Part shown: positions 7,525 through 38,817 of the stretch, piece by piece
Numbering within the stretch: the first letter of the stretch is position 1
Layout of the letters: each line of letters opens with the position of its first letter
Source: Dyadobacter sp. CECT 9275
GTDB taxonomy: Bacteria; Bacteroidota; Bacteroidia; Cytophagales; Spirosomataceae
Direction of reading: 5' to 3'
Length of the DNA stretch: 64,000 nucleotides
Assembly: GCF_907164905.1 (NCBI RefSeq)
Contig: NZ_CAJRAF010000001.1
Coordinates: forward strand, 1,089,001-1,153,000
Made by a program: the position numbers and the translations under genes
The notes under the pieces: model-generated
Database searches by the model: none
What the model was told of the DNA's origin: nothing
What the model saw: only the letters and a program-made list of their open reading frames with translations

Positions 7525-7700
7525 AAATTTATCATTTAACGACGTCGCCTATAGAGAAACAACTACGTAAAACATGTTGACCCTATTGCCGGGAGCGATC
7601 AATAAGGGTACAAAAAATGCTTTCCATCATCTCGCCAAAGACCACCGGAAAGCATTCAGGTTTAATTCGGATTTTACTTTTACTAAACCAATCCAAAAGT

Positions 7701-10700
7701 ATGAAAAATACTTTACAACAAGGCTATGGCTTTGCTGAGAACCTCATTAAATCGAACAAATTAAAGTGGGCCTGTATGTTGACCTTGGTTCTTGTACTGA
7801 TGCAGGCACTTCCTTTTCAGGCGCAGGGTACGCCTTTGGAGGTCAAAGTGTCCATTTCAAGCCGGGAGGTTTCCCTGAAGGAGGTATTGAACAAGCTTGA
7901 AAAGCAAAGTGATCATCACTTTTTTTATAATACCGAACAGGTTGATGTCAATCGGAAAGTGACGGTTAAACTCGCTGGGTCTCTGGATGAGGCTCTGAAG
8001 ACACTCTTTGAAAATACGGACATCACATATCAGATTGCCGGAAAGCAGATATTACTTAAGAAACGTCCTCTTGCAAAAGCCGCTGCGTTGAACGGCCCAG
8101 TGCTGTTACAAATAGAAACGGAGATGAAGGTGCCTCCTGCTGATTTACGACCCCAGATCATTGAGCGAATGCTGCTTCGCAATGCGGATCGGGAGGTAAG
8201 GGGGCGGGTTTCCGAAGAGAGTGGCCAGCCTTTGCCAGGGGTTAATATCGCCATAAAGGGAACTACGCGGGGCGCCATTTCCGACGCAAACGGCAATTAT
8301 TCCATTGAAGTGATGGATAGGAATTCGGTCCTCGTTTTTAGTTTTGTGGGTTATGAAAGAAAAGAAGTGGTCGTTGGTGAGCAGACGGCCATCGATGTAT
8401 TACTGAAAATTGACCCCAAATCTTTGAATGAAGTAGTCGTGGTGGGGTACGGAGCAGTGGCCAAGCGCGATATCACGGGTTCGATTTCTTCTATATCTCC
8501 TGCGGAGTTCAAAAACCATCCGATGAATGACTTCTCTCAGGTGCTTCAGGGAAGAGCGCCTGGAATTACGGTAACCAATACGACGGGATCGCCCGGGCAA
8601 GCAGCCAAAATCAGGATCAGGGGCGCCAATTCGCTATCGGGTGGCAATGATCCCTTGTTTATTATAGACGGCGTTCCCGCGAGCTACGACATCAATATCA
8701 ACGACATTAAATCGGTTGAAATTCTGAAAGATGCGTCGGCAACCGCGATTTACGGTTCCAGGGGAGCCAATGGTGTAATTATCATCACCACGCTAAGGGG
8801 AGAATCAGGCAAGCCCAAAATCACGGTGAGCAGCAATATTGGTTTCAGCCAGGTCAGAAAAAAATATGACCTTCTCAAAGCGGCGGAATACGCTACGCTA
8901 ACCAACACCGTTTATGGGAGCAAGATTTATACAGACACTGATATCCAGGACTTTGCTGCCAAAGGAGGTACCGACTGGCAGAGCGAAATTTTTAAACCCG
9001 GGTTCAGCCAGAACTATCAGCTGTCTGTTTCTGGCGGGGCAAAAAATGTGAAGTATATGGTTTCGGCCAATTCCACCGACGAGAAGGGAACACTTTTGAA
9101 TACCAGCCGCAAAAGGCTTACGTTCAGAAGCAATTTAACCGCAGACCTTACTCAGAATCTGCAGGTTGGATTTGATATCAATGCTCAAAGAAATGAGCGG
9201 CATAACCCTGACCTGGGTAACGGTGGTGATAAGGCAAATCCGATTTACCAAAGTCTGCTATGGTCGCCTACCGAACCAATATATGCTGCCGACGGATCCT
9301 ACAACAAGGTGGATAAATACGGAGCTTTGGGTAAAAACCCTGTTTTGTTGGCTAAGGAGCCACTTTCTGATGCTTTTTCGCAAGGCGTGACCATCAATTC
9401 TTTTGTGAAATATAAAATACTGGAAGGCTTGTCTTTCAACGGTGTAGCACTTGTGACTAAGTCAACAGGCGATAACAGAAGTTCCACCAACGCAAATCTT
9501 TCCAGCGCGCTTTCCGCGTCCAGAAGTTCGTCGGATAATCTGTCCTGGCAGGTAAACGCCCTGATGACCTACGAAAAAAAGTTTCTGGACAAACATCATT
9601 TGTCGTTTTTGGGAGGATTTGAGCAGTTCGTGAATGAGTCCAATGGATTTTCTACAACGGCCATGGGTATCACCGACTACTACAATATCGGAAGCAGCTC
9701 GAGCGTCACTTCCAGCAGCGGATATTCTTATTCTGCATTGCAGTCGTTCTTTGGCCGCGTTAATTACGCGTTTAATTCGAGGTATCTTCTCACGGCCACC
9801 TATCGTGCGGATGGTTCTTCCAAGTTCAAAGACAAAAATAAATGGGGTTATTTCCCGTCCATGGCCGTAAGCTGGATTGCTTCGGAAGAAGAATTTGTGA
9901 AAAACTGGGGTGTCTTTGATAATCTGAAATTCAGGGCAAGCTGGGGAGTTACCGGCAACCAGGCAATTGCACCCTATGCAACTTTATCATCATTGGGAAC
10001 AGGTCAGTATTCGTACGGCTCGGCTGTTACGTACAAAGGCACCAGACCGAACGGCGCTGCCAACACCGGCCTCCGCTGGGAAGAAACCACCCAGCAGGAC
10101 GTTGGATTGGATCTCACATTCTTCAACAGCAGGGTTTCTTTGTCACTCGATTATTTCAAAAAGCAGACCAAAGGTGTTTTGATCAATAAATCGCTACCCG
10201 ACTATGACGCAGGCTACAGTGTTTTACAGAACATTGGCAGGATTGATAATAAGGGCTTCGAACTAAATGCCGATTACATTGCCCATCAGACAAAGGATTT
10301 TTCCTGGAGAATCAATTTTAACTTTTCGACCATCCGGAATAAAGTGATCAACCTTGGTGACGAGAAGCGTATTTTCAGCGGCGCGAATTACTATGGCGCG
10401 GGCGTAATGAATACCAGTCCGTATGTGATAGAGCCCGGGCAACCGCTGGGAGCCATCTGGGGCATGAAGTACCTGGGAATCTGGGGAACTAGCGAGGCGG
10501 ATAAAGCGCTGACTTTTGGCAACAAACCTGGCGATTCCAAATATGAAGACTTGAATAAGGATGGCAAGATTGATGCATCGGATTATCAGATCATCGGTTA
10601 TGCCAATCCCAAGTTCACCTGGGGCTTCAGTAATTCATTTACCTACAAAAATCTGGGACTGGATATCCTGCTTCAGAGTGTGCAGAAACGCGACGTTTAT

Positions 10701-11099
10701 AATATTACGTATGCTTCTGCTGCCGTGCTGATTCCAGACGCCAGAACGATTACACTGAGGGAGGCTTCAGACGTATGGACCGCTTCTAATACAGGCGCGG
10801 CCTGGCCTGCCGTGAGTACAACCAACACCAATTACATGAATTCTTCCAGATGGCTTCAGAACGGAGGGTATGTGAAGGTGAGGAACATCAGCCTTTACTA
10901 CCTGATTCCGAAACGCCTTGCCAGGATTGGCGATATCAAGGTAACGCTGAGCGGACAGAACCTTTTTACCATCACCAAATATAAGGGCTTCGATCCCGAG
11001 GTGTCATCGTCTGGTAACAGGGATGTGGAAGGCGGTATGGATTTTGGGGTATACCCAACATCCAAATTGATCACAGCAGCTCTTTCTTTAACTTTTTAA
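7701..11099 (+). CDS. SusC/RagA-family TonB-dependent outer-membrane transducer
   Basis: The start was placed at ATG 7701 (MKNTLQQGYGFAENL), giving a basic leader and a signal segment ending PFQAQG; the frame is open further upstream. In order it has: an STN signalling domain at about residues 50-125 (VSLKEVLNKLEKQSDHHFFY), a carboxypeptidase-regulatory-like domain at about 165-245 (RGRVSEESGQPLPGVNIAIKG), a TonB-box/plug region at about 250-370 (LNEVVVVGYGAVAKRDITG, IRIRGANSLSGGNDPLFIID) and the beta-barrel to the C-terminal Phe. It imports oligosaccharides with the SusD lipoprotein at 11111. The STN domain shows that it also signals to FecR/sigma. Confidence 0.94.
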   Translation: MKNTLQQGYGFAENLIKSNKLKWACMLTLVLVLMQALPFQAQGTPLEVKVSISSREVSLKEVLNKLEKQSDHHFFYNTEQVDVNRKVTVKLAGSLDEALKTLFENTDITYQIAGKQILLKKRPLAKAAALNGPVLLQIETEMKVPPADLRPQIIERMLLRNADREVRGRVSEESGQPLPGVNIAIKGTTRGAISDANGNYSIEVMDRNSVLVFSFVGYERKEVVVGEQTAIDVLLKIDPKSLNEVVVVGYGAVAKRDITGSISSISPAEFKNHPMNDFSQVLQGRAPGITVTNTTGSPGQAAKIRIRGANSLSGGNDPLFIIDGVPASYDININDIKSVEILKDASATAIYGSRGANGVIIITTLRGESGKPKITVSSNIGFSQVRKKYDLLKAAEYATLTNTVYGSKIYTDTDIQDFAAKGGTDWQSEIFKPGFSQNYQLSVSGGAKNVKYMVSANSTDEKGTLLNTSRKRLTFRSNLTADLTQNLQVGFDINAQRNERHNPDLGNGGDKANPIYQSLLWSPTEPIYAADGSYNKVDKYGALGKNPVLLAKEPLSDAFSQGVTINSFVKYKILEGLSFNGVALVTKSTGDNRSSTNANLSSALSASRSSSDNLSWQVNALMTYEKKFLDKHHLSFLGGFEQFVNESNGFSTTAMGITDYYNIGSSSSVTSSSGYSYSALQSFFGRVNYAFNSRYLLTATYRADGSSKFKDKNKWGYFPSMAVSWIASEEEFVKNWGVFDNLKFRASWGVTGNQAIAPYATLSSLGTGQYSYGSAVTYKGTRPNGAANTGLRWEETTQQDVGLDLTFFNSRVSLSLDYFKKQTKGVLINKSLPDYDAGYSVLQNIGRIDNKGFELNADYIAHQTKDFSWRINFNFSTIRNKVINLGDEKRIFSGANYYGAGVMNTSPYVIEPGQPLGAIWGMKYLGIWGTSEADKALTFGNKPGDSKYEDLNKDGKIDASDYQIIGYANPKFTWGFSNSFTYKNLGLDILLQSVQKRDVYNITYASAAVLIPDARTITLREASDVWTASNTGAAWPAVSTTNTNYMNSSRWLQNGGYVKVRNISLYYLIPKRLARIGDIKVTLSGQNLFTITKYKGFDPEVSSSGNRDVEGGMDFGVYPTSKLITAALSLTF

Positions 11100-11110
11100 T
11101 AATCACTGAT

Positions 11111-12583
11111 ATGAAAAAGTATGTCTATCTATTCTTTCTGACTTGTTCTTTTCTTTCGTGTCAGGTGCTGGACGAAAAGGTAAAGGGCCTGGTGACACCC
11201 GAGACTTATTACACGACGGCCGAGGAACTGGAGGGTGCTGTGGTACCTATTTATAACAAACTCGTGAATCTTTATGACCGGACGGGCCGGGTTACCTGCG
11301 CGATGTATGGTGCAGACGACGTTACCACAAGCAAAGCACTACCCGACCTGGTCGAATATGAGGTTTTCAAACCTACCGGAGCCAACGCATGGCTTAAGTA
11401 CTGGTGGAGCAATGCCTATGGAGGTATTAACAGTGCCAACAATGTCATCGTAAACTCCAGCAAGGTGCCCGATTCCGAAGCCAAAAATCAGGCCCTGGGG
11501 CAGGCTTATTTTTCAAGGGCGTGGCTCTATTTCTATCTCGTGCGGATTCACAACAAGATTCCGTTGATAACCGATATCACTGCGCATCCCGATATCAAAC
11601 GTTCCGAGCCGAAGGAGGTCTATGATCTGATTGTTTCTGATTTGCAAAAGGCTGAAAAGCTGCTTCCCGATTCATGGACAGGGTACAGATCCAACATAGC
11701 GATGACGAGCGGCACGGCCAAATCCACCCTTTCACTGGTTTATCTGACCATGGCAGGGTATCCTTTAAAGGATGAATCGAAATATGCATTGGCTGCGGAA
11801 AAAGCGAAGGAAGTGATCGATAACTCGGGCAAGTGGGGATACAAACTGGTGACAAATTTTGCTGATCTTTGGACCAAACAGCGCTTCAACGACGAAATTG
11901 TATTTGGCCTTTTTTATAACAACAGCAATGGAGATGCCAATCAATCGGCACCCCTGTGCGGCGCTCCGGCTGAATATTCTGGCTGGGATTACTATTTTGC
12001 CGAACTCAATTTTTACAAGGCATTCCCGGCGGGCGCAAGAAAGGATGCTACGTTCTGGACAAAATTCCCGATCGAAACCAAGGACTCCGTCGTTATCAAA
12101 GACTGGACCCAGTTGCAGCAGAAACATCCATACTATAAAAAGTATATAGAGATCGATGGATACGACTGGACAAAGCCCTGGGTTTACATCGACTGGAACT
12201 CCAGCCGCACCAATGTACTGATGCGTTATGCGGAAGTGCTACTGATCTATGCCGAGGCCAAGGCCATGAGTGGAGCGCCTGATGCGACTGCATATGCGGC
12301 AATCAATCAGGTAAGAAAACGGGCAGGGCTGGCAGATCTGACGGCGGGCTTGAACAAAGAAGCTTTCCGGGATGCGGTCATTGCGGAACGGGGCTGGGAA
12401 TTTGCAGGCCTCGAACCAAACGGCAGCAGATGGTTTGATTTGGTGCGGACTGAGGGCGTGGAAAAGGCCGCTGCTGACCGCGATGCCAGTGAAATACCTC
12501 TTTCCGTTACTCCGACCAAGGCGAATTATTTTGCTCCGATTCCTGACGGCGAAGTTTTGCTTAATCCTAATCTGGCAAAATAG
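11111..12583 (+). CDS. SusD/RagB-family glycan-binding lipoprotein
   Basis: The 490-residue precursor has a lipoprotein signal (LTCSFLSC, Cys at about residue 17) and the SusD fold. Visible signatures are the N-terminal ETYYTTAEELEGAVVPIYNKL segment, the TPR-type helices (AKNQALGQAYFSRAWLYFYLVRI) and the C-terminal NVLMRYAEVLLIYAEAKAMSG and INQVRKRAGL motifs. It sits on the cell surface as the lid of the SusC channel encoded 11 bp upstream. Ligand specificity cannot be read from sequence. Confidence 0.94.
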   Translation: MKKYVYLFFLTCSFLSCQVLDEKVKGLVTPETYYTTAEELEGAVVPIYNKLVNLYDRTGRVTCAMYGADDVTTSKALPDLVEYEVFKPTGANAWLKYWWSNAYGGINSANNVIVNSSKVPDSEAKNQALGQAYFSRAWLYFYLVRIHNKIPLITDITAHPDIKRSEPKEVYDLIVSDLQKAEKLLPDSWTGYRSNIAMTSGTAKSTLSLVYLTMAGYPLKDESKYALAAEKAKEVIDNSGKWGYKLVTNFADLWTKQRFNDEIVFGLFYNNSNGDANQSAPLCGAPAEYSGWDYYFAELNFYKAFPAGARKDATFWTKFPIETKDSVVIKDWTQLQQKHPYYKKYIEIDGYDWTKPWVYIDWNSSRTNVLMRYAEVLLIYAEAKAMSGAPDATAYAAINQVRKRAGLADLTAGLNKEAFRDAVIAERGWEFAGLEPNGSRWFDLVRTEGVEKAAADRDASEIPLSVTPTKANYFAPIPDGEVLLNPNLAK

Positions 12584-13155: not shown

Positions 13156-16100
13156 ATGAAAAGAAGCTTTCGCTTGTGGCTGTTGCTGGCTTTGACCACA
13201 ATGGCATGGGGTTTCAGAGCAGACGATTTACCTTTGTCACCTCACGTACCTTCTAAACTGGATATTAAAAAAGGAGCCCGCATCGCGTTGATCGGCAATA
13301 CGCTTGCGGACCGGATGCAGGAAGATGGATGGCTTGAAACCTACATACAATATCGCTTTCCTGATAAAGATATCAGCTTTCGTAACCTTGGCTTTTCGGC
13401 TGACGAAGTAGTGCTCAGGTATCGCGAGGAGGCCTTCGGTACGCCTGATGAATGGCTTACCCATGTTGGCGCAGATGTCATTTTTGCTTTTTTTGGTTTT
13501 AATGAATCCTTTTCTGGGGAAAGTGGTCTGCCGCGATTCAAAAAAGACCTAACAGATTTTATAAAACACAGCAAGCAACAGAAATACAACGGACAATCGG
13601 CTCCCGAGCTCGTATTGTTTTCACCGATCGCCAACGAGAACCTTAAAAGCAGGTTCCTGCCAGACGGGAAGGAAAACAATAAGCGCATTGAAATGTACAC
13701 GAAAGCAATGGCCGAAGTGGCTGCATTGGAAGGTGTTATGTTTGTTGATCTGTACAAGGTTACAAAAAAGCTATATGTCGATAATGAAGGAAAGGATCCT
13801 TTTACTATCAATGGAATACACTTCAATAGCAAGGGCAACAAAGCCATTGGGGACGCTATTGATACGGAACTTTTCGGGCCCGCACCGGACCGGAATAAAC
13901 AGAAAATTGCAGCATTGAACACCGCCGTAAAGGATAAGGATTTTCATTGGTTCAACCGCTACCGGACCACGGATGGCTATAACGTATATGGTGGACGTTC
14001 GTGGCTGAGCTGGGGAGGAAAGTCCAATCGTGATGTGATGTTACGTGAAATGGAAATGTTCGATGTCATGACCGCCAATCGGGATAAAATCATCTGGCAA
14101 TTGAATAAAACCAAACCGAAACTCGCGGAAGACGGAAGAGAGCTGGCTTATCCAAGACTCAAACCGGATGACAGTAACCTGCCTGAGCCGTTGCATGTTG
14201 ATTCCTACGAATCAGGCGTTCGAACCCCCAGAACGGCCCCCTATAAATACCTTGGCGGAGAAGAAGCGATAGGGAAAATGACCATCCCGGCTGATCTGAA
14301 GATCAATCTGTTTGCCTCCGAGGAGCAGTTTCCTGATCTGATTAACCCCATGCAAATGGCATTTGATGCGGACGAGCGACTTTGGGTAGTGACCTGGCCT
14401 ACCTATCCGCACTGGAATCCGCGAGGTGAACTGAACGATAAATTACTCATATTTCCTGACGACGACGGCGATGGCAAAGCAGACCGCTCCATTGTATTTG
14501 CCGACAGCCTGAACAGCATTACCGGCTTCACATTCTGGAACGGCGGGGTTGTGGTGGCGGCACCTCCTCTTTTGTATTACATGAAAGACACAAACGGGGA
14601 CGATGTGGCCGATTACAAAGTACGTTTGCTTGATGGCCTGTCGAGCGCAGATTCACACCACAGTGCAAATAGTTTTCAGCTCGGAGCTGACGGCGCTTTG
14701 TATTATTCACGAGGCATTTTTAATAAAAAGGCGCTGGAAACACCCTACGGCCCATTCCGGTCCGCAGCAGACGGCATCTACCGGTTCGATCCGCTCACTT
14801 TTGAATTCAGCTTTCACTTTCCTGTGGGCCCCAATCCCCATGGCGATGTCTTCGACCAATGGGGTTATCAGTTTGTTACCGATGCGACTGGTGGTACCGG
14901 TTATTACGTCAATATCGGAAAGGGTTTCGGGGCAAGACAGCTTTATGAGCAGAAGGTGAGGCCTGTGCCAGGTATAGGTATTCTTTCGAGCGAGCATTTT
15001 CCCTCCAAGTATAACAGTCAACTACTCATTGCCAATGTGATTGGTTTTCAAGGGATTAAAATGCATAACTTCAAGTATCAGGGTGCGGACATAAAAGCTG
15101 TTGAAACGGGAGATCTGGTCTCATCAACCGACCCCAATTTCCGTCCCAGCGGCATGGGAGTCGGCGGTGATGGCGCGTTATACATACTTGACTGGCAGAA
15201 TGCGCTCATTGGGCATATGCAGCACAATATGCGTGACCCCGGTCGTGACCATACCCATGGCCGGATCTACCGGCTCACTGCCAAAGACCGCCCGCTATTA
15301 AAACCCGCCAAAATGAAAGGAGCCACCGTTGGCGCAATACTTCAAAACCTTAGATCGAAACAAAACGGCACGCGGGAAATAGCGAGAGCGGAATTAACTG
15401 GTCGGCCCACTAATGAAGTACTAACTGCAGTAGATAAATTCTGCGCGGTTCTGGATCCAAAGAAACCTGCCGATTACCAGCCGCTGCTGGAATGCCTCTG
15501 GATTTATGAGATGCATCGGGTTCCCAATAAGGCGCTGCTGGCAAAAGTGTTCAGCATTTCGGATGCCAGGACCCGGTCGGCAGCCGTACGCACACTCGGT
15601 CACTGGGGCCCGAAAGTGGAAAATGGTATTGACATTCTTAAAAAAGCCATAGCCGATCCGGAGCCCTTGGTACGTGCACAGGCAATTCAGGCAGCAACAG
15701 CGTTCAAAAGTCTGGCAGGGGCTGAAATAATGATGGCTTCCGAAGGTTATCCACTTGATATCCAAATGGATGAGCAGATTTCGGCCGCCAGGAAATCACT
15801 GGATCAGTACTGGCGTCTTGCATTGAAAGAAGGGGTGCAATTGTCCAGATCCGGGACAGCATTTGTCCTGAAACATGGCACACCGACTGAGATCGCTTTG
15901 ATCAAACAAAACGAACAGATCAGCAGGTCATTGCTGTCACAAAAGCAAGTCCCATTCGGCATTGCAACCGATGCTGTTGAGAATATCCGGAAGCTCACCG
16001 GCAAAGACAAGGCGACTATTTTACTGGAGCTGATCAGCAAAAAGCAGGAGCTTGCCCCTGCCGTGTACCAGATGCTGGCGCAACTCCCCAAAGATGAGGT

Positions 16101-18462
16101 GATAAAAAACAAGGCCATGCTGACCGCCCTGCTTCTGAACGAAGGCCAACCTGCACAAGCCCGTACAGGTGCTGCCAGCGCTTTGCTTCGTGCTGGCGTT
16201 CCCTCGGGAGACTTGTTTGCAAAGACGACATCAAGTGCCAAAGGCAAGGCTGCTCTATTGAATGCCATCCAGTTGCTGCCGGAGGGAACGGAGCGAGATA
16301 TACATTATCCCCAAGTAAAGTCGCTTTTGACGCGGCAGAGTGCCGTACTTAACACAAAAGTACCCGTGAGCAATATGATGGGAAGATACGTGTACATCAT
16401 ACTTCCTTATAACAACGCCACGCTTTCCCTGGCGGAGGTAGAGGTGATCAGCGGGGGCAAAAATGTGGCCATTGGGGCCAAAGCGCGGCAGTCTGGTGTT
16501 GCAGGAGGCCGGTCAGCCGACCATGCCATCGATGGTATCAAAGGTGATAATCCGGACAATTACACCCAGACAGAAACTTTCTGGAATCAGTGGTGGGAGG
16601 TTGATCTGGGCAAATCATACAACATCAGCCAGATCAATATCTGGAACAGAGAGGATTGCTGTATGGAGGGCCTTGATAATTTTACCATCAAGATACTGAA
16701 TGAGAATTATGAGGTGATTTTGAAAAAGGAAGGAAATAAACAGCCTGAGCCTTACACAGGTCTCCTCGTTTCGGAAATGGCATCACAGCAAAGTCTGGCT
16801 CAGCTGGCCATGTCTACCATGCTGACCATGCCGTCGCACCAGTCAGATGCATTGAATGATCTCGCCCGACTGCTGAACGAGGGTAAAATGGCGGGAGCTG
16901 TCATGAATACCATGGGCGGCCTGGATCTAGAAGGACTTTCAGGCGATAAGATCCGGAACCTTGCCGACAACATTCTCAGGAACCTGGAAAGCGTCCCGCC
17001 TTTTGACCGGGATCAGGATACATTCAAAAATGGCACTGAACTCATGTTCAAGCTTTCCATGAGGCTACCAGCGTCGGAAAAGACAATGATCAACAACCGC
17101 CTCCGGAATATCCAGATGGTTGAGATTTCAATCAATTCCATCGCAGAACAAATGCGTTTCGATATCAATGAATTTAAAGTGCTGGCGGGACAGCCGGTGA
17201 AGATTACCTTCAGAAATCCTGATGCCATGCCGCACAATGTGGTAGTACTCAATCCCGGCAAAGCAAAGGAAATAGGAGAACTGGCTGGTACAATGGCCGA
17301 CGGTTTTGCGAAGAATTACGTCCCCGAAAGTAAGGATGTATTGGCTGCTACCAAACTCGTGAAGGGCGGACAAACCGATGTCGTGAAATTCATGGCTCCT
17401 TCCAAACCCGGAGATTATGAATACATCTGTTCCTTTCCGGGCCATTGGTCTATGATGAAAGGTACGATGAAAGTAAGGCCTGTCGGTGACGGTGATTTTG
17501 AGAAATACAGGGTTACGTACAAAGGAGATGCCGGACCTGGTTTAGGCAAGAAGATTGTTTTCATAGCTTCCGACCATGAATACCGGGGCGAGGAGACTTT
17601 GCCAGCACTGGCGCGTATTCTCGCCAAACGTTATGGATTTACCTGTACGGTCGTGTATGCTTTGGATCAGAACGGGCATATTGAACCGGGTGGAAATGAT
17701 CTCCGGGGGCTGGATGTTCTCGATGATGCAGACCTGATGTTTATCTTCACCCGTTTCTCTGATTTGCCGGATGAGGAAATGCGCCACATCGACAACTACC
17801 TCAAAAGAGGCGGGCCGGTTATTGGACTCCGGACTGCTACGCATGCTTTTAACAATATCGGCAATGCAAATTGGGAGCATTACTCGTATGATTACAATGG
17901 TCCGAAAAAAGCCTGGAAGCATGGTTTCGGAGAATTTATCCTTGGAGAAACCTGGGTTTCTCACTACGGGAACAATCATAGCCAATCTTCCCGGCTACTG
18001 ATCGAAGATGACCGCCGGGAACATCCCGTTCTTAGGGGTGTAAAAGATATGTGGGTGCAGTCGGGTGGCTATACGGCATACCCCGAGGGAATGGTGCTGG
18101 CCCGTGGACAGGTTCTGAACGGTATGACTCCCACTTCCGAAGCCGACAAAACCAAAGAGCTGCTTCCCGTAGCCTGGGTGAGAAGTTATATTCTCGAATC
18201 AGGGTCTACCGGGCGAGTATTTGCTACTACGCATGGAGCGTCTGAAGATATTCTGAATGACGGTTTCAGGCGGATGCTGATCAATGCGGTTTTCTGGTCC
18301 ATGGAAATGGAAAAGGATATCCGGCCAGACAACGATATCAGTTTCGTTGGGCCGTACAAGCCAACCACCTTCAATTTTAACGGCAACAAGGAAAATGTAA
18401 AACCGGCCGATCTGGCGGGTTGGGATTCACTGATCATGCCGGGGCAATTCCGGACAAAATAG
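13156..18462 (+). CDS. giant multidomain PVC-dehydrogenase / cupredoxin / ThuA fusion
   Basis: A start at ATG 13156 gives a signal peptide (LWLLLALTTMAWG). Segments in order: SGNH-hydrolase-like fold at about 42-243, but with I46-G47-N48-T49 where the GDS nucleophile should be and N219-G-I-H222 for DxxH. A PVC-type dehydrogenase-like propeller spans about 380-712 (LINPMQMAFDADERLWVV, DDDGDGKADRS). HEAT-like helices follow at 725-1060. A discoidin (F5/8 C)-like module lies at about 1075-1200 (VDLGKSYNISQINIWN). The cupredoxin is at 1325-1445, with H1360, C1425, H1430 and M1434 matching the azurin C-x4-H-x3-M spacing. A ThuA domain occupies 1462-1760 (IVFIASDHEYRGEETLP). Unlike its paralogues it has no CxxCH, so the copper site probably replaces haem as electron acceptor. 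Substrate unknown; probably periplasmic. Confidence 0.85.
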   Translation: MKRSFRLWLLLALTTMAWGFRADDLPLSPHVPSKLDIKKGARIALIGNTLADRMQEDGWLETYIQYRFPDKDISFRNLGFSADEVVLRYREEAFGTPDEWLTHVGADVIFAFFGFNESFSGESGLPRFKKDLTDFIKHSKQQKYNGQSAPELVLFSPIANENLKSRFLPDGKENNKRIEMYTKAMAEVAALEGVMFVDLYKVTKKLYVDNEGKDPFTINGIHFNSKGNKAIGDAIDTELFGPAPDRNKQKIAALNTAVKDKDFHWFNRYRTTDGYNVYGGRSWLSWGGKSNRDVMLREMEMFDVMTANRDKIIWQLNKTKPKLAEDGRELAYPRLKPDDSNLPEPLHVDSYESGVRTPRTAPYKYLGGEEAIGKMTIPADLKINLFASEEQFPDLINPMQMAFDADERLWVVTWPTYPHWNPRGELNDKLLIFPDDDGDGKADRSIVFADSLNSITGFTFWNGGVVVAAPPLLYYMKDTNGDDVADYKVRLLDGLSSADSHHSANSFQLGADGALYYSRGIFNKKALETPYGPFRSAADGIYRFDPLTFEFSFHFPVGPNPHGDVFDQWGYQFVTDATGGTGYYVNIGKGFGARQLYEQKVRPVPGIGILSSEHFPSKYNSQLLIANVIGFQGIKMHNFKYQGADIKAVETGDLVSSTDPNFRPSGMGVGGDGALYILDWQNALIGHMQHNMRDPGRDHTHGRIYRLTAKDRPLLKPAKMKGATVGAILQNLRSKQNGTREIARAELTGRPTNEVLTAVDKFCAVLDPKKPADYQPLLECLWIYEMHRVPNKALLAKVFSISDARTRSAAVRTLGHWGPKVENGIDILKKAIADPEPLVRAQAIQAATAFKSLAGAEIMMASEGYPLDIQMDEQISAARKSLDQYWRLALKEGVQLSRSGTAFVLKHGTPTEIALIKQNEQISRSLLSQKQVPFGIATDAVENIRKLTGKDKATILLELISKKQELAPAVYQMLAQLPKDEVIKNKAMLTALLLNEGQPAQARTGAASALLRAGVPSGDLFAKTTSSAKGKAALLNAIQLLPEGTERDIHYPQVKSLLTRQSAVLNTKVPVSNMMGRYVYIILPYNNATLSLAEVEVISGGKNVAIGAKARQSGVAGGRSADHAIDGIKGDNPDNYTQTETFWNQWWEVDLGKSYNISQINIWNREDCCMEGLDNFTIKILNENYEVILKKEGNKQPEPYTGLLVSEMASQQSLAQLAMSTMLTMPSHQSDALNDLARLLNEGKMAGAVMNTMGGLDLEGLSGDKIRNLADNILRNLESVPPFDRDQDTFKNGTELMFKLSMRLPASEKTMINNRLRNIQMVEISINSIAEQMRFDINEFKVLAGQPVKITFRNPDAMPHNVVVLNPGKAKEIGELAGTMADGFAKNYVPESKDVLAATKLVKGGQTDVVKFMAPSKPGDYEYICSFPGHWSMMKGTMKVRPVGDGDFEKYRVTYKGDAGPGLGKKIVFIASDHEYRGEETLPALARILAKRYGFTCTVVYALDQNGHIEPGGNDLRGLDVLDDADLMFIFTRFSDLPDEEMRHIDNYLKRGGPVIGLRTATHAFNNIGNANWEHYSYDYNGPKKAWKHGFGEFILGETWVSHYGNNHSQSSRLLIEDDRREHPVLRGVKDMWVQSGGYTAYPEGMVLARGQVLNGMTPTSEADKTKELLPVAWVRSYILESGSTGRVFATTHGASEDILNDGFRRMLINAVFWSMEMEKDIRPDNDISFVGPYKPTTFNFNGNKENVKPADLAGWDSLIMPGQFRTK

Positions 18463-20945: not shown

Positions 20946-23216
20946 ATGCAATACATTTCTAAATTATTGATTGTGAGAAAATTCTCGAAGGTTTTCTTTT
21001 TTATGCTGCCGCTCTTTTTGAATAGCTGCGAAAAATCCGATACCGACACCTCCCTGTCCCTGCCGAAAATAAGCGTTGATGAAAATCCTGGTGCCAAGCC
21101 GCTTTCGCCAGAGAAAACCATGAAATCCATAAGGCTTCCGGAAGGTTACCACCTGGAACTGGTTGCCAGTGAGCCGATGATCACCGAGCCGGTGGCGATT
21201 GCCTGGGACGGTAACGGGCGCATGTTTGTAGCCCAGATGCAGACTTACATGCAGGACATCAATGCCACCAACGAGAATCTGCCGGTAAGCCAGATATTGT
21301 TGTTGGAGGATACCGACAATGATGGAAAAATGGACAAGAAAACGGTCTATATCGACAGTCTGGTACTGCCCCGAATGATGCTTCCGCTTGATGACAGGCT
21401 GATCGTTGGTGAAACCTATTCCAACAATCTGTTTAGCTACCGCGACAAAAACGGAGACGGACAGGCAGATGAAAAGTTACAGGTATACAAAAACGATACA
21501 CGTGATAACTGGAATCTGGAACACCAGAAAAGCGGATTAATATGGAATGTCGACAACTATATCTATGTAAGCACCGGACAGGTTCGTTACCGTTTCGATG
21601 GGACAAAAATGATCGCCGATAGCTTGCCGGAGGGGTCAAGAGGCCAGTGGGGACTTACCCATGATAACTATGGACGACTTTTTTATTCGCTTGCCGGGGG
21701 AGAGATACCGGCCATGGGTTTTCAGCAGAACCCGGCTTACGGGGATCTTGAATTCTACATGTCGCAATGGGAAAAAGGATTTGAACAGGTCTGGCCCATC
21801 CTTTCCACTCCTGATGTCGAAGGTGGGGTTCACCGCCTTCGTGAGGACAGCACGCTAAATCATTTTAGCGCCAGCTGCGGGCAATCGGTTTTCCGGGGAG
21901 ACCGTCTGCCCGGTGATCTTATCGGCGATCTGCTGATCTGTGAACCTGTAGGCCGGTTGATTCGCAGAGCAAAGGTGATGAACACCGGTGGTAAAAGGAT
22001 GTTGAGAAATGCATATCAAGATACTGAATTCCTGGCATCCACCGATATGAATTTCCGGCCTGTAAACACGGCAACCGGACCGGATGGGAATCTGTACATC
22101 GTGGATATGTATCGGGGGATTATCCAGGAGGGGACTTACACAGGACCATCTTCTTACATCAGGCCGCAGATATTGAAAAAAGGGCTGGATAAAAATGTTG
22201 GCAGAGGGCGCATTTATCGTCTGGTTCATGATGGGTACAATCGCGGAAGCAAGCCGCAGATGCTGGATCAGCCAAGTACCAGGCTGGTACAATATCTCTC
22301 ACATCCCAATGGTTGGTGGCGCGACAATGCACAGAAGCTGCTGATCCTGAGAAATGCGAGGGAAGTTATTGCTGAACTCCGTAAGGTGGCAGCGTGCTCA
22401 CTATGGGACCGAATCCCGTTTTTTAAAAATAACAACCGGCATTTGGGAAAAATACATGCTTTGTGGACACTGGATGGCTTGGGCGCGCTTGACCAGAAAA
22501 CGCTCTTCGAAGCTTTGGAGGATCCGGATACTCAGGTGAGGAGAACTGCCGTCCGGCTCAGCGAAAACTATCTCAGAAAATCAGATCAACAGGTATTGTA
22601 CAGACTTGCTGAAATGCAAACAGATCCGGATGTAGACGTGCGCACGCAGCTCGCGCTTTCCCTGCGGTACTTTCAGACAAATACTTCCAGACGAATGCTT
22701 GAAACCATTTTAAAGGGAGACAGTAAAAATGAGATGATCGTGAGTGCTGTCAAAGGATCTCTGGGTAAGTGGGAAACAGTAAAAGAAATCGATTTACAGA
22801 CAAACGGTCTCTCGGCTTCTGACAAAGCGCTGATTCAGAAAGGTGCTGTCATTTTCAAACAGCTTTGCGCCACCTGCCATGGTTCTGACGGGAAAGGCCT
22901 CCAGCTCGGAGAAACCGGAATGGCAGCACCACCGCTGGCAGGTTCTCCAAGAGTAAGGGGAGAAAAAAGGATTCTGATCAAAATACTGCTTTCTGGGTTG
23001 ACCGGCCCAGTAGACGGGAAAACCTATCCGGGCATTATGCCAGAAATGCAAAGAAACGACGATGACTGGATTGCCGCCGTAGCCAGTTACATCCGGACCA
23101 ATCTGGGAAATAATTCTTCCGTGATCACCACCGAAGAATTGATCGCCATCAAGGCAAAAGAACCGGGGCATTACGAGCCATGGACTTTGAAAGAGCTCGG
23201 GTTGAAAGACAAATAG
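20946..23216 (+). CDS. PVC-type dehydrogenase-like lipoprotein with HEAT repeats and cytochrome c domain
   Basis: A lipobox (FLNSC, Cys about 28) predicts membrane anchoring. Residues about 60-440 form the PVC/sorbosone-dehydrogenase-like beta-propeller (PEGYHLELVASEPMITEPVA, DTDNDGKMDK, NTATGPDGNLYIVDMYRG). Residues about 445-610 are HEAT-like helices (EDPDTQVRRTAVRLSENY). Residues about 625-735 are a class I cytochrome c with C641-x-x-C-H645 and a downstream Met-rich PGIMPEM segment for the axial ligand. It probably oxidises a carbohydrate and passes electrons to its own haem; the substrate is unknown. Its closest relative in the window is the gene at 25807. Confidence 0.85.
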   Translation: MQYISKLLIVRKFSKVFFFMLPLFLNSCEKSDTDTSLSLPKISVDENPGAKPLSPEKTMKSIRLPEGYHLELVASEPMITEPVAIAWDGNGRMFVAQMQTYMQDINATNENLPVSQILLLEDTDNDGKMDKKTVYIDSLVLPRMMLPLDDRLIVGETYSNNLFSYRDKNGDGQADEKLQVYKNDTRDNWNLEHQKSGLIWNVDNYIYVSTGQVRYRFDGTKMIADSLPEGSRGQWGLTHDNYGRLFYSLAGGEIPAMGFQQNPAYGDLEFYMSQWEKGFEQVWPILSTPDVEGGVHRLREDSTLNHFSASCGQSVFRGDRLPGDLIGDLLICEPVGRLIRRAKVMNTGGKRMLRNAYQDTEFLASTDMNFRPVNTATGPDGNLYIVDMYRGIIQEGTYTGPSSYIRPQILKKGLDKNVGRGRIYRLVHDGYNRGSKPQMLDQPSTRLVQYLSHPNGWWRDNAQKLLILRNAREVIAELRKVAACSLWDRIPFFKNNNRHLGKIHALWTLDGLGALDQKTLFEALEDPDTQVRRTAVRLSENYLRKSDQQVLYRLAEMQTDPDVDVRTQLALSLRYFQTNTSRRMLETILKGDSKNEMIVSAVKGSLGKWETVKEIDLQTNGLSASDKALIQKGAVIFKQLCATCHGSDGKGLQLGETGMAAPPLAGSPRVRGEKRILIKILLSGLTGPVDGKTYPGIMPEMQRNDDDWIAAVASYIRTNLGNNSSVITTEELIAIKAKEPGHYEPWTLKELGLKDK

Positions 23217-25806: not shown

Positions 25807-28056
25807 ATGTACCGTAAGCCAGCGCTATTAATTTTCGTTTGCATACTTCTTGTGATCGGTTGTACCACGGCTATGAAAACGACCGTATTCCGGTCGCCAG
25901 AAAAGAAGGCAGTAAACCTGTACCCTTCCGCTGCATATCTTTCGCCGGAGGAAACAATCCATTCGATCACTTTACCCGAAGGATATCATCTTGAACTCGT
26001 CGCCAGCGAGCCGATGATCTCAGAACCGGTTGCTATGGTATGGGATGCCAACGGCAGGTTGTTTGTGGCGGAGATGCGAACTTACATGCAGGACATTGAA
26101 GCCACTGGTGAGAACCTTCCCACCAGCAGGATCTCCCTTTTGGAAGATACCAACGGGGACGGCAAAATGGATAAGAGCTCTGTATTCATTGATAGTCTGG
26201 TTTTGCCAAGAATGATGCTTCCACTGAACGATCGGCTCATTGTAGCCGAAACCTATACCGGAAACTTGTATAGTTACCGGGACACCAATGCCGACGGAAA
26301 AGCAGATGAAAAGATACTGGTTTACAAAGATGACCAGCGCGATAACCGCAATCTGGAACATCAGGAAAGCGGATTGATCTGGAACATAGACAATTGGATT
26401 TACGTGAGCAACGGGCCTATCCGGTATCGTTTCGAAAATGGCCAACTCCGGTCCGACACGCTGCCGGATCATTCCCGGGGCCAGTGGGGACTTACCTACG
26501 ACAATTATGGAAGGCTGTTTTACTCGGCCGCCGGTAGCGAAAATCCGGTGTTTGGCTTTCAGCAGAACCCGGCCTACGGCGAACTGGAGTTTTACCGGGA
26601 TCAGTGGGAAAAGGGTTTCGAAAAGGTATGGCCCGCTATCGCAACCCCGGATGTGGAAGGAGGTGCTAAGCGTTTGCGCGGAGATAGTACACTGAATCAT
26701 TTCACAGGTGCTTGCGGTCAGTCGATCTATAGAGGAAACAGGCTTCCCGCTGATCTGGTTGGCGATTATATTATTCCCGAACCGGTTGGTCGGCTCATCC
26801 GTCGCGCGAGGGTTACCAATCAGAATGGTAAAAGGGTGTTGAAAAATGCTTACGAGGGTGAGACCGAGTTCCTCACATCTACAGACATGAATTTTCGTCC
26901 CGTGAACACGGCGACCGGACCCGATGGCTGCCTCTATATTGTGGACATGTACCGGGGTATTATTCAGGAGGGTACCTGGACAGGCCCGAAATCCTATCTC
27001 AGGCCTCAGATATTGAGCAAAAAACTTGATAAGAACATCGGTCGGGGACGAATTTACAGGTTGGTGCACGATGACTATAAGCCTGATAGAATACTTCCTC
27101 TTCTGAAAGCAACAGATTCACAGCTTGTCAGCTATTTGTCTCACGCAAATGGCTGGGTACGTGACAATGCCCAGGTGCTTCTCATTTCACGGAACGCTGC
27201 GAACGTAATTCCAGATTTGCGTAGGTTGGCAGAGGGACGCACATCATTTCTTTCAGGCGTGTTTTCGGGAAAGAAAGAGGCAGACCACCTTGGCCGTCTT
27301 CACGCACTCTGGACATTGGAAGGACTGGGTTATGTGGAAAAGGATTTTTTGAAAAAAGTCCTTCAGGACGAACACCCGCAACTCCGGAAGGCTGCCATCA
27401 GGATACTTGAACCTTACGTGAAAAAAGGTGATACAGAGGTACAGAATTGGCTGGAAACCCTCAAAGACGATCCGGACTATGATGTGCGCATCCAGATCAC
27501 GCAATCACTTCGCTTTGTCAACAACGATAAATCGCGGGAATTACTGGCCCATATTATTAATCAAAGCCCTGGAAACGAAATGCTTACCGCCACCGTGCGG
27601 CAGACTCTGGGCGTATTGGAAATGGTGAAGCCCCTTGCGGTCTATACCAAAGGTTTCAGCGCCGCTGACAGCACCCTGATTACCAGAGGATCGGTCATTT
27701 TTAAAGAGCTCTGTTCAACCTGTCACGGAGCCGATGGAAAAGGTATACAGCTGGGCGAGAGCGGTATGGCTGCGCCACCGCTTAGCGGATCGGCAAGGGT
27801 AAGGGGGGAGAAAGATATCCTGATCAATATCGTCATGTATGGTTTGATGGGGCCGGTTGATGGCAAAACTTATCCCGGAATGATGCCTGAAATGAAATCA
27901 AATAATGATGAATGGCTTGCTTCTGTAACCAGCTACATACGTACCAACCTGGATAACAGCGCATCGGTGGTGAGCACTGCCGATGTGACGCGAATACGTA
28001 AGACCGTTCCCGACCGCTGGGCGTGGACTTTGAAAGAACTTGGCCTTGAAAAATAA
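25807..28056 (+). CDS. PVC-type dehydrogenase-like lipoprotein with cytochrome c domain (paralogue)
   Basis: This 749-residue lipoprotein (lipobox VIGC, Cys about 19) is collinear with the gene at 20946 through its whole length. It shares the propeller (PEGYHLELVASEPMISEPVA, DTNGDGKMDKSS), then HEAT-like helices (DEHPQLRKAAIRILEPYVKK), then cytochrome c with C636-x-x-C-H640 and a PGMMPEM axial-Met candidate. Identity between the two is high enough to read by eye, which indicates a local duplication. The function is probably periplasmic carbohydrate oxidation with electron transfer to the respiratory chain. Two related copies suggest two substrates or linkage positions. Confidence 0.85.
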   Translation: MYRKPALLIFVCILLVIGCTTAMKTTVFRSPEKKAVNLYPSAAYLSPEETIHSITLPEGYHLELVASEPMISEPVAMVWDANGRLFVAEMRTYMQDIEATGENLPTSRISLLEDTNGDGKMDKSSVFIDSLVLPRMMLPLNDRLIVAETYTGNLYSYRDTNADGKADEKILVYKDDQRDNRNLEHQESGLIWNIDNWIYVSNGPIRYRFENGQLRSDTLPDHSRGQWGLTYDNYGRLFYSAAGSENPVFGFQQNPAYGELEFYRDQWEKGFEKVWPAIATPDVEGGAKRLRGDSTLNHFTGACGQSIYRGNRLPADLVGDYIIPEPVGRLIRRARVTNQNGKRVLKNAYEGETEFLTSTDMNFRPVNTATGPDGCLYIVDMYRGIIQEGTWTGPKSYLRPQILSKKLDKNIGRGRIYRLVHDDYKPDRILPLLKATDSQLVSYLSHANGWVRDNAQVLLISRNAANVIPDLRRLAEGRTSFLSGVFSGKKEADHLGRLHALWTLEGLGYVEKDFLKKVLQDEHPQLRKAAIRILEPYVKKGDTEVQNWLETLKDDPDYDVRIQITQSLRFVNNDKSRELLAHIINQSPGNEMLTATVRQTLGVLEMVKPLAVYTKGFSAADSTLITRGSVIFKELCSTCHGADGKGIQLGESGMAAPPLSGSARVRGEKDILINIVMYGLMGPVDGKTYPGMMPEMKSNNDEWLASVTSYIRTNLDNSASVVSTADVTRIRKTVPDRWAWTLKELGLEK

Positions 28057-28096: not shown

Positions 28097-29587
28097 ATGA
28101 ACAAATTGTACCTGAGTGTTTGTTTTTTTTTAGTAATTGTTTGGGTGACAGGTTGTAACAAGACCGGTGAGGCTCCTGAAAAATATGGTGCTCTCCCCAG
28201 TGAGAGACAACTCGCCTGGCACAAGCTGGAAAACTATGCATTCCTCCATTTTACCGTAAATACCTTTACCGACAAGGAATGGGGTTATGGAGATGAGGCG
28301 GAATCGGTTTTTAATCCGACCGATTTCGATGCGGATCAGATCGTGGGTACTTTGAAAAAGGCGGGCTTCAAGGGAGCCATTCTTACCGCCAAACACCACG
28401 ATGGGTTTTGTCTGTGGCCATCCATGTTCACTGAACACTCTGTAAAGAACTCGAAATGGAAAAACGGAAAGGGGGACGTAGTCAGGGAAATCTCGGATGC
28501 CTGTAAAAGACATGGTATTAAGTTTGGCGTATATTTATCACCGTGGGATAGAAATCATGCGGATTACGGCACACCGAAATATGTCGAATATTACCGCAAC
28601 CAGCTCCGGGAACTGCTTACCGGGTATGGCGAGATCTTCGAAATCTGGTTCGACGGGGCCAATGGCGGGGATGGGTATTATGGAGGAAAAAGGGAAGTCA
28701 GGAAGATAGACGCGAGTAACTATTATGAATGGGAAAAAACCTTGAAGATTGTGCGCGAACTGCAGCCCAACGCGGCGGTGTTCAGCGACGCCGGACCGGA
28801 TATACGCTGGGTTGGAAACGAGGGGGGCTATTCCAATGACACCTGCTGGGCGACTTATACGCCCAGTCCCCGGGAAGGATTTACCAGGGCCTGGGCCGGG
28901 ACCACGAAAGACTGGGAGGGGGAGAAGGGGCATATGAATGGAAAGTATTGGATGCCTGCCGAAACGGATGTGTCCATTCGAAAGGGATGGTTCTACCATG
29001 ATTCTGAGAACAGCGACAAAGTGAAAAGTGTGGATAGTCTGGTGAAGATTTATTTCAAATCGGTTGGAAACGGAACTTCCCTCAACCTGAACCTCCCGCC
29101 CGACAAACGGGGAAAAATCCATCCGACCGATTCTACCAACCTCATGGGACTTAAAGCATATCTGGATGAAGGATATAAGCACAATTTCCTCGCGGACAGT
29201 AAGATATCAGCAGGCGAAAACGGGGGATCTGTAAAGATCTCATCCTACGAACTTACCGACAGTGACGACGAAACCTATTGGTATAACGGGAAAAACACAA
29301 ATGCCAAGGTAATCACTTTTGAACTGGAGAAGGAAGCGGAATTCAATTGTTTTATGCTGAAAGAATATATTCCGCTCGGGCAGCGGGTTAAATCCTTTTC
29401 CATTGAAGTGTTTGACGGGGAAAAATGGAAGGAAATGGCCCGCGGAGCAACAATCGGTTATAAACGGCTTCTGAAGTTTCCACCCCAAAAAGCGAAAAAG
29501 ATAAGGGTGTTGATAAAGGATGCGCTGGCTACACCGCTCATTGCGGAAACAGGGCTATATCGTTTCCCGGACTTGAAAAGGAAATGA
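28097..29587 (+). CDS. GH29 alpha-L-fucosidase with discoidin-like C-terminal domain
   Basis: The 496-residue lipoprotein precursor (lipobox VTGC) has the GH29 TIM-barrel: WHKLENYAFLHFTVNTFTDKEWG, GAILTAKHHDGFCLWPS, FGVYLSPWDRN and IWFDGANGGDG, with D186 as the expected nucleophile in the WFDG motif. Residues about 365-490 form an F5/8 type C-like module (KVITFELEKEAEFNCFMLKEYIPLGQRVKSF is the typical region). It would remove terminal alpha-L-fucose with retention. The acid/base residue varies in GH29 and was not assigned. It is 40 bp from the PVC gene upstream and probably co-transcribed. Confidence 0.9.
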   Translation: MNKLYLSVCFFLVIVWVTGCNKTGEAPEKYGALPSERQLAWHKLENYAFLHFTVNTFTDKEWGYGDEAESVFNPTDFDADQIVGTLKKAGFKGAILTAKHHDGFCLWPSMFTEHSVKNSKWKNGKGDVVREISDACKRHGIKFGVYLSPWDRNHADYGTPKYVEYYRNQLRELLTGYGEIFEIWFDGANGGDGYYGGKREVRKIDASNYYEWEKTLKIVRELQPNAAVFSDAGPDIRWVGNEGGYSNDTCWATYTPSPREGFTRAWAGTTKDWEGEKGHMNGKYWMPAETDVSIRKGWFYHDSENSDKVKSVDSLVKIYFKSVGNGTSLNLNLPPDKRGKIHPTDSTNLMGLKAYLDEGYKHNFLADSKISAGENGGSVKISSYELTDSDDETYWYNGKNTNAKVITFELEKEAEFNCFMLKEYIPLGQRVKSFSIEVFDGEKWKEMARGATIGYKRLLKFPPQKAKKIRVLIKDALATPLIAETGLYRFPDLKRK

Positions 29588-29766
29588 GCTGCATGATGCA
29601 GGTTTTTTTGGGAGGGTAAAATCGAAATATAAATGGAGGTTCATGGTTGGTGGCTGTTTTTCAGATATCGGGCGGAATCGGATGAATTTCGCTCAGATAT
29701 TTTGTCCCGGCATCGTTCAAGTAGGCAGAAATAAAATATTCAAAGCAATCTATTAAGTCCTGAAAA

Positions 29767-31584: not shown

Positions 31585-31637
31585 TTTTCCTGATACCTGT
31601 TTTATTTCATCCAATTTAAACCTGAATCCCATCGCAA

Positions 31638-33614: not shown

Positions 33615-33654
33615 ACCTCTTTTTGCTACTTCAATTTCCTAAACCCTTAACCAT

Positions 33655-34467
33655 ATGTTGAATACGACGCATCCAGCCCACTTTCCAATTCCTGTAAGGG
33701 TGTGGGCCATCCTCTGTTTACTGTTGATGTGCGCGGGCGTTTCGGAGCGGGTTCTGGCGCAGGCTGTCAAACCCGAGAAACGCCTTCTCGTTTTTTCTAA
33801 ATCGGCAGGATTCCGGCATTCGTCGATACCAGTTGGGAAAGCCGCCATTGTGAAGCTGTGCAGGCAAAACGGATTTTCGGTTGATACCACGGAAAATGCC
33901 GCGCTTTTTACCGATGAAAATTTAAAGAAATACGGGGCCGTGCTATTCCTTAATACCACGGGAGGTGTATTGGACGCGAATCAGCAAGCCGCGTTTGAGA
34001 GATTTATCAGGGCCGGGGCAGGATACGTGGGTATTCATGCAGCAACGGATACAGATCATCAATGGCCTTGGTACACAGCCCTTTCGGGTGCCTGGTTTAC
34101 GGGCCATCCCGACCAGGATACGGTTCAAACCACGGTTGTGAGCAGGGATCATATTTCGATGAAAGGGTTCCCCGAACACTGGTGGATTAAAGACGAATTG
34201 TACAATTTCGGAAATCTTAACCCCGATATCAAAGTCCTGTTGACCATTGATGAAAAAGCCTATGAAGGCGGGGACATGGGGGACTTTCATCCGATGTCCT
34301 GGTACCATGAATTCGACGGCGGGAGATCATTTTATACCGCATTTGGTCACAGGGAAGATTTGTATAGCAATCCGGTATATCTGAAACATTTGTTCGGAGG
34401 TATTCAGTATGCTTTAAAAAAAAGAAAAATTCCGGCTCATTTTCATGCAGATAAATCAAAAGAATAG
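33655..34467 (+). CDS. ThuA-domain secreted protein
   Basis: The 270-residue protein has an N-terminal signal segment ending RVLAQA and a single ThuA (class-I-glutamine-amidotransferase-like) domain: LLVFSKSAGFRHSSIPVGKAAI, YGAVLFLNTTGGVLDANQQAAF, GYVGIHAATDT, MSWYHEFDGGRSFYTAFGH. ThuA proteins occur in trehalose/disaccharide 3-keto catabolism, but the catalytic role is unsettled. It is a stand-alone counterpart of the ThuA domain fused at the C-terminus of the 13156 protein. Confidence 0.88.
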   Translation: MLNTTHPAHFPIPVRVWAILCLLLMCAGVSERVLAQAVKPEKRLLVFSKSAGFRHSSIPVGKAAIVKLCRQNGFSVDTTENAALFTDENLKKYGAVLFLNTTGGVLDANQQAAFERFIRAGAGYVGIHAATDTDHQWPWYTALSGAWFTGHPDQDTVQTTVVSRDHISMKGFPEHWWIKDELYNFGNLNPDIKVLLTIDEKAYEGGDMGDFHPMSWYHEFDGGRSFYTAFGHREDLYSNPVYLKHLFGGIQYALKKRKIPAHFHADKSKE

Positions 34468-34521
34468 AGCGGTTCGTGTCTTTTAAAACTACTGATACAA
34501 ATTGAGTTTGCCTGATATACG

Positions 34522-35283: not shown

Positions 35284-35349
35284 TAATTGTCCGAAATTGA
35301 CTGATTATCAATCCATCATAAGGTATACATGTCTATTACAGCGTTTTGA

Positions 35350-37260: not shown

Positions 37261-37313
37261 AAAGTAAAATGTGAGAAGTAAAAAGTGAAAAGTGAGAGGG
37301 GCGAATCTCAGGC
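37258..37313 (+). repeat. short A/G-rich degenerate tandem repeat
   Basis: Directly after the GH127 stop, the unit GTGAAAAGTAAAA recurs with small variations (AAAGTAAAAT, GTGAGAAGTAAAA, AGTGAAAAGTGAG) over about 45 bp. It ends at the start of the GH32 remnant and may mark the deletion joint that removed most of that gene. Confidence 0.5.
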
Positions 37314-37490: not shown

Positions 37491-37568
37491 AACCCAGGCC
37501 TATTTGGTTTGAAATATTCTGTTTTTCATTTTGAACCGAATTGTTTGGGTGAATATACATAGTTCGAG

Positions 37569-38780: not shown

Positions 38781-38817
38781 TTTCCACCGGAGTAGTATAA
38801 AATTAAACGAGCAGCAA

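Follow-up and report, generated by a model that had tools for sequence, protein, structure and literature searches.

The window analysed here, 64,000 nucleotides of Dyadobacter sp. CECT 9275 (contig NZ_CAJRAF010000001.1, positions 1,089,001 to 1,153,000), raises the question of how a long enzyme-like chain, built around a propeller of the kind found in haem-linked proteins, could work with a copper site in place of haem. The chain, called P0001 below, is encoded by one stop-free open reading frame (ORF) of 1768 residues at 13156-18462 of the forward strand. An earlier, sequence-only reading had seen in it a degenerate SGNH domain, a PVC dehydrogenase propeller, HEAT repeats, a discoidin domain, a type-1 copper domain and a ThuA domain, fused into a self-contained redox and sugar-processing machine in which copper replaces haem as electron acceptor. 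The most likely working, to which we give a probability of about 0.47, is that of a sugar-dehydrogenase-like enzyme that drains electrons through its attached copper domain. We infer its export, substrate, cofactor and electron transfer, as well as the roles of the SGNH and ThuA modules.

The chain and its copper domain

The copper domain aligns with auracyanin A (2.9e-18) and with azurins with all ligands in register, and its C-terminal loop, CSFPGHWSMMKG, is nearly identical to that of the azurin 2aza. The four copper ligands are kept in every one of the 320 proteins that carry the domain, among 328 collected. The azurin equivalog profile TIGR02695 gives 60.9 bits, under its cut-off of 105.1. 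A structural model of residues 369-1441 (42 sequences; predicted local distance difference test score 87.8, predicted template-modelling score 0.75) places the domain close to auracyanin A, with a template-modelling score of 0.90 at 1.6 Å. The azurin-type site proposed earlier is thus complete as far as prediction can tell, with ligands in register and a predicted auracyanin fold. P0001 shares with auracyanin A and azurin the predicted type-1 copper fold and all four ligands; its domain is covalently attached, whereas theirs are free carriers.

As far as sequence or prediction can establish it, the domain architecture of the remaining chain is also as described. The frame holds all the named parts, and profile searches matched the named families: DUF7133 (PF23500) at 209.8 bits (cut-off 27), TIGR02604 at 197.7 (122.2), Copper-bind (PF00127) at 60.4 (21.2), F5_F8_type_C_2 (PF22633) at 51.7 (above its curated cut-off), ThuA (PF06283) at 40.2 (33.4) and Lipase_GDSL_2 (PF13472) at 37.9 (32.9). 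HEAT_2 stays slightly under its cut-off (25.8 against 27.7 bits), and the model has a long helical array there. The residues that had been singled out, IGNT at 46-49, NGIH at 219-222 and H1360/C1425/H1430/M1434, are all as claimed, and a C..CH haem c motif is found nowhere in the 1768 residues. An in-frame ATG at 13054 would extend the chain to 1802 residues; the signal-peptide-like stretch, judged by eye, begins at 13156.

Could such a chain be a sequencing or assembly error, or a decaying fusion of functionless modules? A protein search with P0001 returned 2641 proteins at E ≤1e-3 among 7994 scored candidates, and the best 120, P0001 included, were listed. Within this list the complete order is found at 61-79% identity in ten homologues (P0002-P0011) and at 39-42% in three more (P0016, P0030 and P0047), so that 13 of the 119 others share it over the whole length; P0012 has the same order minus the discoidin domain. 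The named holders are from Cyclobacteriaceae (P0004) and Sphingobacteriaceae (P0011), with Fulvivirgaceae (P0012) for the form lacking discoidin. The copper ligands and the SGNH replacements described below are conserved as well. In favour of an artefact one may cite the relatives: across 98 of them, 47 from the same genus, the best match among those listed is a ThuA-only one (3.5e-173; at most four candidates scored per genome), and a match at E 1e-250 is found in one of 395 sampled genomes of the class, namely its own. Partial matches among those listed for the relatives are stand-alone ThuA proteins (up to 74% identity) and SGNH-PVC-HEAT proteins (34-47%). The six-part form therefore looks scattered rather than core, and the homologues of the same order rule out, as far as sequence can, a frameshift, a chance product or a decaying fusion; we consider an artefact highly improbable.

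The protein belongs to a known, uncharacterised and partly misnamed family, and no paper on the copper fusion was found in the open-access literature. Family members vary around the discoidin domain. Some relatives have PA14 or nothing in its place, and in those without it (e.g., P0012 and P0021) the helical stretch follows directly after HEAT.

Copper and haem behind the same propeller

That the copper and haem modules are interchangeable is supported, not proved, by sequence comparison, and the best evidence is P0044 set against P0016 and P0030. P0044 runs SGNH-PVC-HEAT-discoidin-helices-cytochrome c-ThuA, and a cupredoxin stands at the cytochrome c place in P0016 and P0030; Pfam finds Cytochrom_C in the first and Copper-bind in the other two. 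Between P0044 and P0016 the identity is 74% in SGNH, 82% in the linker, 83% in the propeller, 46% in HEAT, 67% in discoidin and 82% in ThuA, with 23% in the helices and 17% in the carrier. The carriers of P0016 and P0030 are 74% identical, and the propeller of P0044 is 83-84% identical to those of both. In a tree of the SGNH and PVC parts, made by a quick method from 73 of 145 eligible rows and with a long-branch warning, P0044 groups with P0030 (support 96) inside a clade with P0016 (99). On this tree the copper-only label changes 11 times, at least eight of them forced, and the haem label twice, as gains or losses. The number may be inflated because five copper-only proteins in a clade otherwise mostly bearing both carriers (P0063, P0064, P0069, P0084 and P0108) stop directly behind the copper domain and could represent truncated or split gene models.

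How general is the exchange? When the 328 collected proteins are sorted by cupredoxin profile and C..CH, 159 have both, 161 copper only, seven haem only and one neither, with the proviso that the C..CH pattern would miss other haem motifs and that some copper-only models may be cut short. These proteins come from three overlapping lists of the best 120, one of them begun from a copper-only protein, so their shares are not natural frequencies. The genome of the strain itself has 35 propeller-bearing ORFs (seven with a propeller score below 25 bits, and two that are parts of a single copper protein, counted apart), of which 21 have CxxCH, six a C-terminal cupredoxin, eight neither and none both; the DUF7133 propeller has 36 matches there, two in some proteins. 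The earlier claim that copper replaces haem holds for the in-place exchange between close homologues and agrees with the finding that none of the 35 ORFs combines the two carriers, but it is not general, given the 159 proteins that have the two together.

Three loci elsewhere in the genome deserve a word beside these counts. At L107:1035-3661 and L108:149-2768 (on C2 and C4) a cupredoxin ORF adjoins a weakly scoring propeller ORF without CxxCH, so that the pair occurs as separate genes. At L098:895-4829 (C4, about 707394-711330) two overlapping ORFs of 712 and 650 residues together make up an SGNH-propeller-HEAT-copper protein; most copper-type relatives of the genus in the tree analysis are single ORFs of about 1304-1342 residues, and the split is a broken gene or an assembly error.

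In the 159 proteins with both carriers, the copper domain ends 40-79 residues before the CxxCH; named examples are from Fuerstiella (P0017), Pirellulales (P0028), Maioricimonas (P0086) and Gemmataceae (P0254). This arrangement suggests a different history, in which copper is a relay. Electrons would ancestrally have passed from propeller to copper to haem, the terminal cytochrome would have been lost from this lineage with ThuA now in its place, and a free cytochrome or azurin would collect from the copper. ThuA does stand directly after the copper domain in P0001-P0012, the clade of these proteins is sister to a clade of seven rows with both carriers (support 96), and the genome has a separate Copper-bind ORF of 176 residues. 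On the other hand, the cytochrome c of P0044 sits at the copper position itself, not behind it. Six more haem-only members were found, among the matches listed, by a search with P0044, and cytochrome c comes right after the helices in five of them (P0255, P0261, P0308, P0317 and P0320) and after HEAT in P0268. Moreover, among 25 more distant proteins of the genus and family, nine have haem alone and 16 copper alone, and none has both. We regard the relay as rather unlikely.

A more far-reaching version of exchange is an acceptor socket, in which one propeller-HEAT unit has repeatedly been coupled to a copper carrier, a haem carrier or the two in series (copper first) through in-place swaps of a C-terminal module. 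P0001 would then be the copper-only form, oxidising a sugar, draining the electrons through copper and handing the keto sugar to its own ThuA. We put this forward tentatively, as a possibility to be taken seriously. The nearest known systems can be compared on this point. The PVC-type heme-binding CxxCH proteins (TIGR02604/DUF7133) have the same propeller and HEAT as P0001 and include its sisters in the same carbohydrate cluster, whereas P0001 has a copper domain instead of CxxCH and adds SGNH, discoidin and ThuA to the chain. The SGNH-PVC-HEAT-copper-cytochrome proteins (such as P0014, and P0086 of Maioricimonas) share the core order from SGNH to copper; unlike P0001, they have CxxCH after copper and ThuA, if present, at the N terminus, with PA14 for discoidin in P0086.

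Propeller, accessory modules and the likely working

In a first model the propeller is nearest to the pyrroloquinoline quinone (PQQ) sugar dehydrogenases and AA12, with a score of 28.0 where the next kind reaches about 24. A second model gives the same nearest kinds less clearly (26.6 against 24.1), and both were built from the same homologues. Profile comparison also places the propeller with the PQQ sugar dehydrogenases; the family PF07995 is not among the 13 Pfam families listed for P0001 at E up to 10. The predicted fold is thus like that of the PQQ-dependent soluble glucose dehydrogenase and the AA12 pyranose dehydrogenase, from which P0001 differs in its identity of less than 20%, in lacking the Arg of their RNPQG motif and in having copper as the carrier. 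Searches of the genome for cofactor genes returned two PqqD matches, judged not specific, and no PqqC match, but the controls gave none either and this last result is uninformative. A parallel built-in carrier is seen at L116:1237-2892, where a GSDH (PF07995) protein runs into a cytochrome c-like part with CSSCH.

From these likenesses we would picture P0001 as a periplasmic enzyme of a polysaccharide-utilisation cluster, its export being suggested by the N terminus. The propeller, built like those of PQQ sugar dehydrogenases, would most likely oxidise a hydroxyl of an oligosaccharide, and its electrons would go to the attached type-1 copper and from there to a soluble respiratory-chain carrier. 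Judging by sequence, the copper domain sits where some family members have cytochrome c, and between close relatives it is this module that changes, the rest of the chain being alike. HEAT and discoidin may form a scaffold, probably in contact with carbohydrate, and SGNH may bind substrate. The C-terminal ThuA probably handles the oxidised (keto) sugar, a role in line with the neighbouring genes for a 3-keto-disaccharide hydrolase, ThuA and a GFO/IDH/MocA protein.

Several observations weigh against this working. Open-access literature yielded no settled activity for any close relative. The Arg of RNPQG, which we take to be a PQQ contact, aligns with Pro559 in the profile alignment, and none of 240 proteins has Arg there. 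The aligned His of the PQQ sugar dehydrogenases, presumably catalytic, would correspond to H502, which is His in 96 of 120 proteins and in none of a second 120; the adjacent H501 is invariant in these 240 proteins, but not across DUF7133 at large. As for the carrier, 159 of the 328 proteins have a haem motif after copper, therefore copper is not always a haem substitute and may also be an intermediate, and two haem-bearing sisters lie in the cluster of P0001 itself. One of the eight own-genome ORFs counted with neither carrier, L092:912-3785, has a partial Copper-bind match (31.1 bits, C-x4-H-x4-M) near its N terminus. Finally, P0044 is known from a single contig and a single 90% cluster (15 member sequences), and when it was used as query no other protein of its exact order turned up among the matches listed.

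A different activity has to be weighed here, namely that the propeller is a glycosidase or lyase; the attached copper or haem domain would then act in some other way, for instance in redox sensing, metal storage or docking. One report describes glucose release from lactose by Lac161_ORF7, a propeller-HEAT-cytochrome c protein expressed in Escherichia coli BL21(DE3)pLysS, with a Km noted as LacZ-like (PMC5342196). A survey of "Planctomycete-specific" cytochrome c proteins states that nothing is known of their functions (PMC5615132). Without electron transfer it is hard to see why the propeller should repeatedly be joined to one-electron carriers of two unrelated kinds. The expression host BL21(DE3)pLysS has a LacZ of its own, and contamination of the Lac161_ORF7 preparation by it is possible; this caution is ours and not that of its authors. 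A hydrolase or lyase is unlikely in our judgement, and the dehydrogenase with its copper outlet is preferred.

The SGNH domain had been described as having lost its catalytic Ser and Asp. The residues are indeed absent, with T49 where the nucleophile Ser of GDS is expected and N219 where the Asp of DxxH is expected, but the change is not peculiar to P0001. Among the 120 listed proteins G47, G114, E117, N219 and H222 are invariant, N48 is kept in 118 and N116 in 119, and position 49 is T in 73, G in 34, A in 10, N in 3 and Ser in none. Since these replacements are common to all 120, private decay of the domain in P0001 is rejected. By its residues it is not a classical esterase, because the Ser-less active-site blocks are common to the 119 nearest listed homologues; it is a shared Ser-less variant, not universal among the more distant domains of the genome (L090 has IDGSQ where P0001 has INGIH in block V, and a separate SGNH ORF in L096 has GNS at block I where P0001 has GNT). 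The fold assignment rests on Pfam and the secondary structure of the model; against PDB sequences there were weak GDSL matches only (best E 0.14).

The discoidin domain is closest to F-type lectins (FBP32, 2.5e-21), and fucolectins were found with the family profile. It has a contiguous Cys pair, and the cluster around it holds a fucosidase and a GH95 protein. We assume the sugar motif of these lectins to be R-x-D-x4-R/K; the corresponding region of P0001 is R1165-E-D1167-CC-ME-G1172, in which the second Arg, present in P0016 and P0030, is Gly. Fucose binding by this domain is thus unsupported.

The ThuA domain scores above the cut-off of its family, PF06283, and differs from many SGNH-PVC relatives in being fused C-terminally, where they carry ThuA N-terminally; among PDB sequences it had no match up to E 1. 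A stand-alone ThuA of the same genome has 72% identity with it. In a quick tree of 97 rows the C-terminal ThuA of P0001-P0012 groups with the stand-alone ThuA of the genus (support 99), apart from the N-terminal ThuA, and those of P0016, P0030 and P0044 form a separate C-terminal group (100). The supported branches force at least two changes of the C-terminal label. On these sequences the simplest reading is that a C-terminal ThuA was captured twice separately; one gain with later loss or release would be the less simple alternative.

The gene cluster and the naming of the family

The features of the chain and its surroundings are collected in Table 1. The neighbourhood is a polysaccharide-utilisation cluster of oxidative (keto-sugar) character, and beta-helix proteins are also encoded downstream of the P0001 gene. 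The genes at 20946 and 25807, which had been taken for haem-linked propeller sisters, are just that. Calling P0001 self-contained was too strong, because the cluster around it is large and holds these haem-bearing sisters. The 3-ketotrehalose hydrolase BT2157 is assigned to PF06439 in PMC9007349.

Table 1. Features of P0001 and its gene cluster, in window positions (ECF, extracytoplasmic function)
Feature	Position	Strand	Remarks
ECF sigma factor	5683-6285		upstream
FecR	6520-7524		upstream
SusC-like TonB receptor and SusD-like protein	7617..12583	+	upstream
Whole ORF P0001	13156..18462	+	signal-peptide-like N terminus, SGNH, linker, PVC propeller, HEAT, discoidin, helices, cupredoxin, ThuA
SGNH/GDSL-like domain, residues 35-241	13258..13878	+	Pfam PF13472; without nucleophile Ser and block-V Asp (GNT, GFNE, NGIH)
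Conserved, largely helical linker from SGNH to propeller, residues 252-343	13909..14184	+	homologue comparison and model
PVC/DUF7133 propeller, residues 369-722	14260..15321	+	Pfam/NCBIfam; PQQ-sugar-dehydrogenase-like fold by structure match
HEAT-type helical repeats, residues 743-1099	15382..16452	+	profile and model
Discoidin/F-type-lectin-like domain, residues 1109-1198	16480..16749	+	PF22633, FBP32 match
Helical stretch, residues 1212-1320	16789..17115	+	homologue comparison and model
Type-1 copper (auracyanin/azurin-like) domain, residues 1324-1440	17125..17475	+	ligands H1360, C1425, H1430, M1434
ThuA domain, residues 1462-1734	17539..18357	+	PF06283
Haem-bearing sister	20946..23216	+	DUF7133, HEAT and cytochrome c (CxxCH)
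Second haem-bearing sister	25807..28056	+	DUF7133, HEAT and cytochrome c (CxxCH)
Rest of cluster	28097..44684	+	alpha-L-fucosidase (PF01120), 3-keto-disaccharide hydrolase (PF06439), cytochrome c protein, ThuA, PIG-L, GH127, PD40, AP_endonuc_2 (xylose-isomerase-like), GFO/IDH/MocA oxidoreductase, glucuronyl esterase, GH95

A third cytochrome c protein with CxxCH and a weak propeller score (31638-33614) adjoins a ThuA gene. A second SusCD cluster lies on the opposite strand at 45865-55129, with its own ECF sigma factor and FecR and a PIG-L protein that has a weak ThuA match, below the cut-off, near its end. The G+C content of the P0001 gene, 0.492, is nothing unusual beside the window (0.477) and the listed neighbours (0.447-0.519). 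P0001 had no match in an anti-phage defence library, and no sigma-70-like promoter was seen 5' of the gene in 12400-13300, a consensus that is not meaningful for this phylum.

One further protein of the genome bears on how the family is named. L082:1612-5151 is a ThuA-propeller-HEAT-copper protein with many Dyadobacter homologues, the named ones reaching 83% identity. All of the 120 homologues listed for it (P0121-P0240) keep the copper ligands and lack CxxCH after residue 100, and about two dozen, by hand count, are named "PVC-type heme-binding CxxCH protein". Copper-only proteins under such a name point to a naming error. The DUF7133/PVC propellers are abundant, yet no settled activity for one was found in the open-access literature. 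The exchange of copper and haem gives matched pairs, such as P0044 and P0016, in which the dehydrogenase role and the electron uptake by the carrier could be directly tested. If the acceptor socket is real, many of the proteins that at present bear the name "heme-binding CxxCH" would turn out to be copper enzymes.
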